Assembly (NCBI GenBank): GCA_030068145.1
Contig: JAPJBO010000335.1
Coordinates: 158,076 to 222,075 of the forward strand
Length of the DNA stretch: 64,000 nt
Direction of reading: 5' to 3'
From: Diplonema papillatum
Taxonomy: Eukaryota > Euglenozoa > Diplonemea > Diplonemida > Diplonemidae
The notes under the pieces were generated by a model. That model worked only from the letters and a program-made list of their open reading frames with translations, ran no database searches and was not told the DNA's origin. Below are positions 32,401-35,400 of this stretch, one piece after another. The position numbers and the translations under genes were made by a program. Each line of letters opens with the position of its first letter. The first letter of the stretch is position 1.

Positions 32401-35400
32401 TTTCCGGGGCGGAGTCGTTTCTCCCCGGGCGTTCTACAGGCTGTTCGGCGCTCTGGTGTGGTTCGCGTACACAACGCGTTTTCCCTTGGCGTACGCCCGG
32501 TGCGCTCTTTCGTTCGTGCAGAGACTCTCCTCACGACTGTCGGTGGGAGGTCTGCAGGCATGGGACGTGCCGGTGAACGTTCCGGCGTCGACAGCCCGCG
32601 AAGTTGAAAGCCTCACGGCGACCATCGGGGAGAACCGGTGGGTCACGCGAGTGGGCACGCGCGGGGGGCAGTCGATCCGACTATGGTCCGACGCCTCCTC
32701 AAAAGAATGGGCGGCGCTGCTCGAGGGTGAGCCCGAACGGGTGTCACAGGGCATTTTCTTTGGTCACTTCGCAGAAAAGCACATTTTTTTGAAAGAGCTT
32801 TTCGCAGTGTTGAAAGGCCTCGAGCTAGCCGTTAGAACACACCGTGGAGTGTCCGTAGAGCTGATGGTAGACAACCTACCGGCGGTTCATTGCCTGAACA
32901 AGGGCCACTCGAAGAATTACGCGGCGAACATAATACTGTCGCGCATTTTCGATCTGGCCCGAGAGTACGGACTTGAGCTCACGGCTACGTGGGTGCCGAC
33001 CCACGAACAGAGGGCGGACGAGTACACCCGGGGTACCCAGGCGAAAGAGAACGCGACGCCTGGAGGGTGGTTACCGAAGGAGGAAGATCTCTCGCCTCCT
33101 CCGGATCTGACTACTTGAAAGGCCACTGCGTGGTCCCTGGGGGTCCTGGATGGTGTAAGCGAAGAACAAATCAGATTGTGTTTGTATTGTATTTGCCCCT
33201 TACCTCTATATTTCCCCCCTTCCATTCGGAGTCGAAGCAGCTACGTCGAGTATTTTTACATAAGCGCCAGCTTGAAAGGAAATGCTCGACGATGCTGCCC
33301 GACAAAGAACAGAAGGGATCCAAAGTGCTGTAACTACCGAACCACGTGTTGAACGGACGTGAGGTCATGCGGGTCTTCCCCTACACGACAAATCACACAA
33401 ACACAACAGGTCAAAAGCCCTGAGTGAGAAAACAACACACGGTGGTGTAAGCGAAGAACAAATCAGATTGTGTTTGTATTGTATTTGCCCCTTACCTCTA
33501 TATTTCCCCCCTTCCATTCGGAGTCGAAGCAGCTACGTCGAGTATTTTGGGACAAAAATTATAAGAGGTGGTTGCTCAAGCTTTTCGTGCCGCGGAAAAC
33601 CTTGTTGCCTTTATACATGTTCCCCTGATGTTGCCCCATTTTTTAGGGCACAAACCTTTTCCTTTTTCCCCCGTCTCTTTTCCATTCTTGCATATCAGGC
33701 CTGCATGCCCCATCAAAAGCACTCGAAAAGAAAACAAACGAGCGTTTTACCACCTTGCGCGGTGTCACGGGATGTTTGGCAGCCGCTGCTAAACATCGTG
33801 CATGCATAGTGCATGCTAATCCATGTGGTTCATGTACTTAAAAGAACTCAATGCTAAACAACGATTTAAAAGCTACAGTTTCTGTACTTTATTGGCTGCT
33901 CACGCGGCCGGTAAAGTGCGCCCGGAATTCATCCAGGACAAACACCCTCCATAACACAACAGCGGTACCCATCCGCGAAAAGAACGCGGGCTACCCGTAG
34001 CTCCGTCAAAATGGACAGGATTAACGCCCCGATCCAGGAAGCGCGCGGGATGGCGGAACGCGCCAACCGCGACCAGCTGGATGCCGTTTTCGGCATCCTC
34101 GACGTCGCCAGATCAGATCGAGGCGAACAGCGGGGAGCCGGCGCAACAACGGCCGCCACTGCAGCAACAGCAGCAACCGAAGCAGCAGCAGCAGCAACCG
34201 AGGCAGCAGCAGCCGAAGCAGCAGCGGCAGCAACCGAAGCAGCAACAACCGCAGCAACAACCGCAACAGCAACAGCAACAGCAACAGCAAACGCAGCAGC
34301 GCCGCCCGCAGGAGCAGCAACAACCGCAACCGCAACCGCAACAGCAACAGCAACAGCAACAGCAAACGCAGCAGCGCCGCCCGCAGGAGCAGCAACAACC
34401 GCAACAGCAACAGCAACAGCAAACGCAGCAGCGCCGCCCGCAGGAGCAGCAACAACCACAACAGCGGCCCCGGCAGGGGTACGCGCCCACCTGGGCAGAA
34501 GTGACCAGGCGGCCCCCGCCACCCGGTAAAATCAACGCCGCCGACTAGGACGCGCCGGTACTCCCCTCCCCCGACTTCGAAGCTGTCGAAGCTGGCCTCT
34601 GGGTCGCCCCGAGCGCCGCCGCAGCCGAGGAAGCGAAGGGTCCCGCAGCAGATGCGGTGGACGTCGCAGAGCGCGACGGGAAGCGGGTGCGCCTCGGCGT
34701 GCTGTGCCGGGAGGCCTTCGACGACGCACGCCGGGGCCCAGTGCTGCTGGAAGGCGGGCGGGTACAGGATATGTACCTGTGGGCGGGCGGCGGGCCGGTA
34801 TGCCAGCGGGGCCAGGTGAAGGTCCAGAAGATGCCCGTCAGCGCGGTGAAGCCGAACGCCGCGACGACGGTACTGGCCTTCGTCGTGGCCAGGAAGCACG
34901 CCTCGCCGGAGACCTGGGAGTGCGTCGAGAGGGACCCGCGCACGGCCCTGACTCGCCTGTGCCGGAGGGCTGTCAAGACGGCCCTGAAGACGGAGGTCCG
35001 CGTCCCCGACGACGCCATGTGGGGCGTGGCGTCGCAGCAGGGGAGGCGCGAGCTGGTCGTGCGGGTGCCCCGCGCGCAGGCCGAAGCGATCCTGGCCAGC
35101 TCCGGCCGGGACGGCGGATTCTGGCGGTCGACGGAGAAGGCCTGCCGGGACGCCATGCCGGTGGTCGCCCTGCAAAAGGGGGTCACGAGGGCGGTCGCGC
35201 TGGCGGTAGCTGAGCGGGCAGGCGCGGCGGCAGCCGGTCTCGTGCTCACGGGCAGCCGCCTCCTCGTGCGCGCACGCAGCGGCGCTGTGCTGGAGGAGGT
35301 GCGTGCGGCGGCCGCCGAACACGCTGCTGCCCCCCTCGAGTCGAAGCCGCGCTTCCTCGTGGTGGGTGCGACGCCGCGGGAGCACGAGGCGGACGTCGAG

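Follow-up and report, generated by a model that had tools for sequence, protein, structure and literature searches.

In dinoflagellates, genomic copies that keep a spliced leader (SL) are already known as SL-tagged retrocopies with DinoSL relics (DinoRL). In the published account, a new leader is spliced to a site within the old one, which thereby loses its first part, and tandem relics arise (PMC12014239, PMC6050394); the loss from the old leader amounts to its first seven nucleotides (PMC12014239). Tandem relics are a feature of part of the dinoflagellate cases. In Hydra the SL is known on TE transcripts: about 30% of the TE Iso-Seq reads carry it, at the RNA level only, and genomic SL junctions are not described in that account (PMC12220107). 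For the L1Tc element of trypanosomatids, the internal Pr77 promoter is described as yielding unspliced transcripts, and the SL was not detected on Pr77-derived reporter transcripts (PMC4748587). SLACS, CZAR and CRE, in turn, are LINEs of Euglenozoa which insert into SL RNA genes (PMC12278014). For Diplonema papillatum itself, LINE-1 and SLACS-like ORFs are on record in the genome paper together with SL RNA genes, and no mention of SL-LINE junctions was found there (PMC10161547). No report of genomic SL-LINE junctions, or of SL retrocopies in Euglenozoa, was found in the open-access literature, which does not establish their absence in print.

The stretch analysed here (64,000 nucleotides of D. 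papillatum DNA, called the window) contains a LINE with a donor-less leader exon at its 5' end, the feature of the dinoflagellate-type SL-tagged retrocopies. Dinoflagellates and Diplonema are thus alike in keeping the SL in genomic copies. DinoRL, however, is described for genes in the sources cited, whereas in Diplonema the leader stands on the LINEs themselves, in Euglenozoa, and is an unrelated one of 39 nt. The window LINE shares with L1Tc/ingi an AP-type endonuclease, a reverse transcriptase (RT) and a putative 2A-like motif (PMC4748587), and with SLACS/CZAR/CRE the tie between a euglenozoan LINE and the SL. Unlike the latter, it carries the SL and inserts elsewhere: no insertion of the SLACS type, inside SL RNA genes, was found, since none of the 63 tested 5' flanks of its copies matched either of the two known SL RNA gene upstream sequences.

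The leader and the LINE in the window

The following features were assigned.
33809..33853 (+): 3' terminus (45 bp) of an older LINE copy that lost nearly all the rest by 5' truncation; the same 45-mer ends copies L050 and L058
33854..33861 (+): short target duplication CTAAACAA, 5' copy, with a microhomology overlap between its end and the leader
33859..33894 (+): spliced-leader exon, nt 4-39 of AACCAACGATTTAAAAGCTACAGTTTCTGTACTTTATTG; identical over 36 nt to the exon in SL RNA genes L009, L010 and L012
33895..41441 (+): LINE (non-LTR retrotransposon) of subfamily A, degenerate, with frame breaks; endonuclease and RT domains; compared by alignment with six further copies
33895..33936 (+): the 42 nt of the LINE that directly follow the leader, up to and including an internal AG (CATCCAG) that is the trans-splice acceptor in other copies
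34657..35916 (+): ORF1 portion, without a Pfam match; resembles ORF1 of other SL-tagged LINEs
36360..36398 (+): LLSAGDIEQNPGP, ahead of the endonuclease, a putative 2A-like motif (read by eye)
36426..37067 (+): AP-type endonuclease domain (PF03372, E 3.3e-9)
38220..38835 (+): RT domain, split over two frames (PF00078 on two pieces)
41397..41441 (+): LINE 3' terminus (45 bp) of the present copy; the same 45-mer ends other copies
41442..41449 (+): short target duplication CTAAACAA, 3' copy, after the 3' terminus of the element

The 19-mer CAGTTTCTGTACTTTATTG was found at 33876-33894 as a single occurrence in the window, where 0.02 matches are expected by chance even with three mismatches. In the three SL RNA genes read in the same genome the identical exon is followed by GTACTTTAACAC; in the window copy GC comes directly after the SL and a GT donor is absent. 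Two of the three SL RNA genes read have U2 and 5S genes beside them, which is the arrangement described for D. papillatum, whose SL length is given as 39 nt (PMC10161547). The ORF2 protein has six named relatives, all of them D. papillatum proteins. The exon match, the GC after the SL and the ORF2 relatives identify a real leader without donor in a diplonemid host; judged from the sequence, it is a genuine D. papillatum SL fused to the 5' end of a LINE. The first-pass annotation had proposed such a fusion with no SL donor behind the leader, had named SL RNA genes for comparison and had placed the host among the euglenozoans, all of which agrees with the present result. Its span, 33859..33896, is right for the SL match and overshoots at the end, 33896 being two bases inside the element.

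Downstream of ORF1 the window LINE has the endonuclease and RT domains, the two RT pieces matching PF00078 at E 0.0081, which does not reach the curated cut-off, and at 6.4e-11. In ORF1, stretches some 200 aa long showed 53% and 30% identity to other SL-tagged LINE families. A 389-bp segment of the LINE (39465-39853) is inverted relative to each of the six copies aligned with it. At the 5' end, an HDV-type ribozyme was ruled out by an Rfam search of 33700-34300, none being among the matches up to E 10. Around the element, an exact 106-bp direct repeat lies upstream (33151-33256 and 33443-33548) and a tandem array of ~41-bp units (GAGGGTGGGATAGCTC) follows at 41868-42660. The window also holds 28S rRNA fragments at 14130-14446 (+) and 22532-22635 (-); about 3600 scattered 28S rRNA pieces are reported for this genome (PMC10161547).

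Recurrence of the leader and its junctions

All genome-wide counts are lower bounds for the 271-Mb assembly. The 19-mer CAGTTTCTGTACTTTATTG occurred at least 628 times, and its reversed control 0 times. The SL exon followed by GTA was found at 219 places or more; L011, at least, is among these without being an SL RNA gene. Allowing up to two mismatches in 25 nt, at least 77 starts of the window LINE were found, and the SL tail (within two mismatches) adjoins 73 of them, including L087, where it is reduced to its last 11 nt. Of the other four, two have TG added after a complete SL, one shows a small deletion within the SL, and one lies at a contig edge, where just 7 nt of the SL are left (TTTATTG). 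A recognisable SL therefore adjoins 76 of the 77 starts. Over 51 nt of SL and LINE together, 70 of the 77 agreed within three mismatches, and 62 exactly. The expectation that the leader recurs in other copies was thus borne out. A LINE with AG in place of the leader, which had also been foreseen, was not found at any of the 77 starts. The host exon does not differ from the window leader, nor do all the LINE copies carry the leader within a longer conserved 5' region that reaches upstream of the target duplication. The 5' flanks were read for 67 of the 77 starts, and 63 were testable by pattern; none of these 63 contained a second SL. That the two TG-insert copies (L057 and L058) are sisters inheriting the change was rejected, as the compared body of L057 shows no difference from L025, L033 and L037, which have no insert; L058 is about 0.7% from its nearest copies.

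The junctions themselves point to splicing. At five loci, representing four distinct insertions, the SL is joined directly at the position equivalent to 33937, that is at CATCCAG/GACAAACACC, 42 nt inside the LINE (AG at window 33935-33936); two of these loci, L082 and L084, have a common flank and keep just 17 nt of the SL. An SL on an AG internal to the 5' UTR is strong sequence evidence that trans-splicing preceded reverse transcription. L061 and L067, two loci of another element, have about 38 nt after the SL in common, and the SL joins either CAGGAGC or GAGC; splicing at tandem acceptors, with a choice between neighbouring sites, would leave junctions of this kind. Three SL-tagged elements, L008, L061 and L067, are inserted in (CTA)n microsatellites.

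From the recurrence of the leader, its identity with the host exon and its presence on an internal AG, it is concluded with a probability of about 0.88 that the window copy is a LINE made from a trans-spliced mRNA, the leader having been kept as its 5' end. To that extent the earlier proposal, in which a LINE mRNA was trans-spliced and then reverse transcribed together with its leader, is upheld. It is the best explanation. Against it, a native-AG source was found at 0 of the 77 starts, so the splice that made the SL/GCTGCTC junction is one that we infer. The Diplonema SL would be joined by trans-splicing to the LINE transcript, reverse transcription would run through most of the leader, and the copy would enter a GCTWAAC site with the leader forming its 5' end; here that site lay where an older truncated copy ends on its 3' side. 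Target-primed synthesis is suggested by the LINE enzymes together with the short duplication.

Target site and first nucleotide of the leader

The element is flanked by identical 54-mers (33808-33861 and 41396-41449), previously regarded as a 54-bp target duplication. This was ruled out: 45 of the 54 bp are the LINE 3' terminus, which ends L050 and L058 and is missing from their 5' junctions, and only the last ~8 bases (CTAAACAA) are target. L060 also ends in the 45-mer, and its 5' flank holds just the last part of it. As the 45-mer is the LINE's own 3' terminus, the insertion point of the window copy was the 3' edge of a truncated copy already present. The duplication proper measures about 6-9 bp around CTWAAC, and its two sides agree in six of the seven copies with both ends covered; among these, L058 alone has a 5' flank without the confounding 45-mer. 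Comparison of the two sides of L050 revealed no target duplication.

Of the 63 flanks, 32 end in the 45-bp terminus, 14 in a repeat ending GCAGCCGCTGCT and 17 in neither, and an exact GCTWAAC lies within 40 nt in 38 of them; 12 loci, in four groups, have the same 43-nt flank within the group, so that these insertions may not be independent. L052, L059, L060 and L087, with shortened or cut leaders, were left out of this tally and inspected separately. GCTWAAC seems to be the preferred site of the LINE, and the LINE's own 3' edge seems to re-create it. Copies would therefore pile up one behind another, the window copy being such a case.

The first nucleotide of the leader was A in all three SL RNA genes, in 3 of 15 LINE copies with nt 2-9 intact and non-target flanks, and in 3 of 13 copies outside the window LINE. 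When all LINE copies with nt 2-9 intact were taken, A was found in 23 of 50, probably supplied by a target ending in AAC or AACA. Where the flanks allow a test, nt 1 of the leader thus appears at no more than chance level, and the cDNA seems to stop one nucleotide short of the leader end. In the kinetoplastid cap 4 the first A is methylated. A methylated first A of this kind would explain the missing nucleotide, the first nucleotide of the capped leader presumably blocking the enzyme; it would equally follow from a leader of 38 nt, although 39 nt is the published length. In the missing nucleotide the genome has a footprint of the RNA 5' end, which can be set against cap chemistry. Two copies, L044 and L093, have stuttered 5' ends, with a portion of the leader repeated in front of the complete one, as template jumping might leave.

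The leader through successive cycles

Twenty-six SL matches outside the 77 starts were read. In 23 of them at least 29 nt of the SL are present, whereas L068 and L079 have just 20-21 nt; L073 has one change in the SL. This set includes LINEs that share 53% and 30% ORF1 identity with the window LINE, and an RT-encoding element preceded by the SL (L007). In L006 the SL is followed after nine bases by an ORF with an astacin domain, 497 aa or longer as it is still open where the locus ends; this is a candidate processed host gene. The LINE family marked by GYGKCTTRCCGTGG after the leader was found at 354 or more places with one mismatch. All three of its loci read for the start (L106, L107 and L108) begin sharply at SL nt 27, and exact counts gave 252 places with nt 27 kept against 87 with nt 25 kept. 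Longer leaders are present in L002, L003, L071 and L077, of the same type. One reading of the sharp start is a fixed transcription start inside the leader.

Outside the window family, the leader itself seems to have acted as acceptor. If a new SL splices to the CTACAG inside an old one, the first 23 nt of the old SL are removed, a 16-nt unit, TTTCTGTACTTTATTG, is left, and the string CTTTATTG/TTTCTGTACTTTATTG is expected. It was found at 35 places at least (33 exact; 32 loci), whereas the reversed control gave none; upstream of 18 of these places the complete 19-mer is known to be present. In the one tandem locus of the 32 that was read, L105 (G000:C293:54525-54690), four tandem 16-nt units precede a short A-rich 5' UTR. 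They are possibly a record of four splice-and-copy rounds; alternatively, replication slippage could have multiplied the units once two existed. The target sequence, too, appears able to supply an acceptor AG in other families. In L072 the SL stands on GTGTCACGGGATAAGCCGGCAGCCGCTGCTTAACGG, which is target-repeat sequence: 33 nt of L072, counted with the last G of the SL, equal the 5' flank of L052, where an AG comes just before GTGTCACGG. Further downstream, L072 and L003 have in common an 18-nt stretch of 5' UTR and the ORF1 start, as compared by eye. The SL on this sequence was counted at eight places or more in the genome, of which one was read.

The earlier statement that the element must rebuild its promoter or acceptor after each cycle, or depend on read-through, is therefore too narrow, because the SL itself seems to hold an acceptor (CTACAG) and the target sequence can apparently provide one elsewhere. 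The view of the leader as a fossil of trans-splicing stands, and in other families it seems to be more than that, its internal CTACAG being apparently re-used. In those families the next cycle would use either the CTACAG of the leader or an AG in the target sequence as acceptor.

For the window family the situation differs. Tandem relics exist elsewhere in the genome, yet none lies within 200 nt of its 77 starts, and use of the internal AG is rare (four insertions). The SL/GCTGCTC junction recurs without a visible acceptor, and three explanations of the next cycle are retained.

In the first, the leader was captured once or a few times, the LINE starts transcription at or near it, and the SL is inherited as the first 38 nt. 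The absence of a native acceptor and of any CTACAG re-splice within 200 nt at all 77 starts is in line with this, and the sharp start of the GYGKCTTRCCGTGG family at nt 27 (252 against 87) would be the expected trace of a fixed transcription start. The variation among copies speaks against inheritance. Forty-seven copies were compared over up to 1.45 kb, two of them short (L046 and L047). They form subfamilies A (24 copies) and B (23), a median of 16.6% apart in an imperfect alignment, as is also indicated by a within-subfamily 90th-percentile distance of 0.24-0.29. Among 44 copies, shared variants occur in none of the 32 SL columns, where 10 columns have a single deviating copy, as opposed to 21 of 79 columns in the 5' UTR beyond +30. 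Fixed differences between A and B number 13 of 79 in this part of the UTR and 0 of 32 in the SL, and all nine SL substitutions in the genome-wide list are private. This constancy favours fresh leaders, without proof. The 30 bp that follow the leader vary as little as the SL does (0 of 31 fixed differences, 1 informative) and formed part of the search pattern, so constancy does not decide between renewal and selection. Two further points weigh against inheritance, namely that LINE families with ORF1 only 24-53% identical carry an identical leader, and that an SL at new AG sites requires trans-splicing. Simple inheritance is accordingly considered rather unlikely.

In the second, a few master copies with a native AG, missing from the assembly, yield SL-tagged copies that are dead on arrival. 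Such masters would account for the single clean SL, the private SL mutations and the lack of tandem SLs. At least two of them, for A and for B with their median distance of 16.6%, would have to be absent from 271 Mb of an assembly described as quasi complete (PMC10161547), which makes this explanation doubtful as well.

The third possibility is an exact replacement of the old leader at its 3' end, either by a TG acceptor (TTG/GCTGCTC) or by template jumping, in which the reverse transcriptase would move onto the leader of another mRNA. Each cycle would then end with a single new SL at an unchanged junction. For the leader relics of dinoflagellates, use of a TG acceptor has been proposed (PMC12014239), and the stuttered ends of L093 and L044 fit template jumping. 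No direct case was found, TG acceptors are unusual, and the TG-insert copies L057 and L058 would be left unexplained, so that exact replacement is held to be improbable.

Insertion of the LINE behind the exon of an SL RNA gene, whose promoter would then yield an unspliced SL-LINE RNA, would likewise place the junction exactly at the exon end. It is very improbable: the 63 tested flanks gave no match (a partial test, with two upstream types known), unrelated sequences also carry the SL, and the SL is found on internal AGs. A chance match or an assembly chimera can be practically dismissed in view of at least 628 genomic copies against none in the reversed control and the many different flanks behind which the leader stands.

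Returning to the reading from trans-spliced mRNA, a wider role of the leader may tentatively be considered, although the odds are somewhat against it. The SL would be a portable and renewable 5' terminus, bringing with it the next acceptor (CTACAG) or an internal transcription start and being refreshed in each cycle from the host SL RNA. The LINEs would then depend on host trans-splicing and not on a promoter of their own, and tandem units would count generations.

In hosts whose mRNAs are capped through trans-splicing, which form of RNA a LINE copies and how it outlives the loss of its splice acceptor are standing questions; the DNA studied here gives part of the answer, pointing to the spliced mRNA as the RNA that was copied. 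The leader marks complete 5' ends, and tandem units may count cycles. The SL-tagged copies are thereby a readable record of the spread of jumping genes in the marine flagellate D. papillatum.
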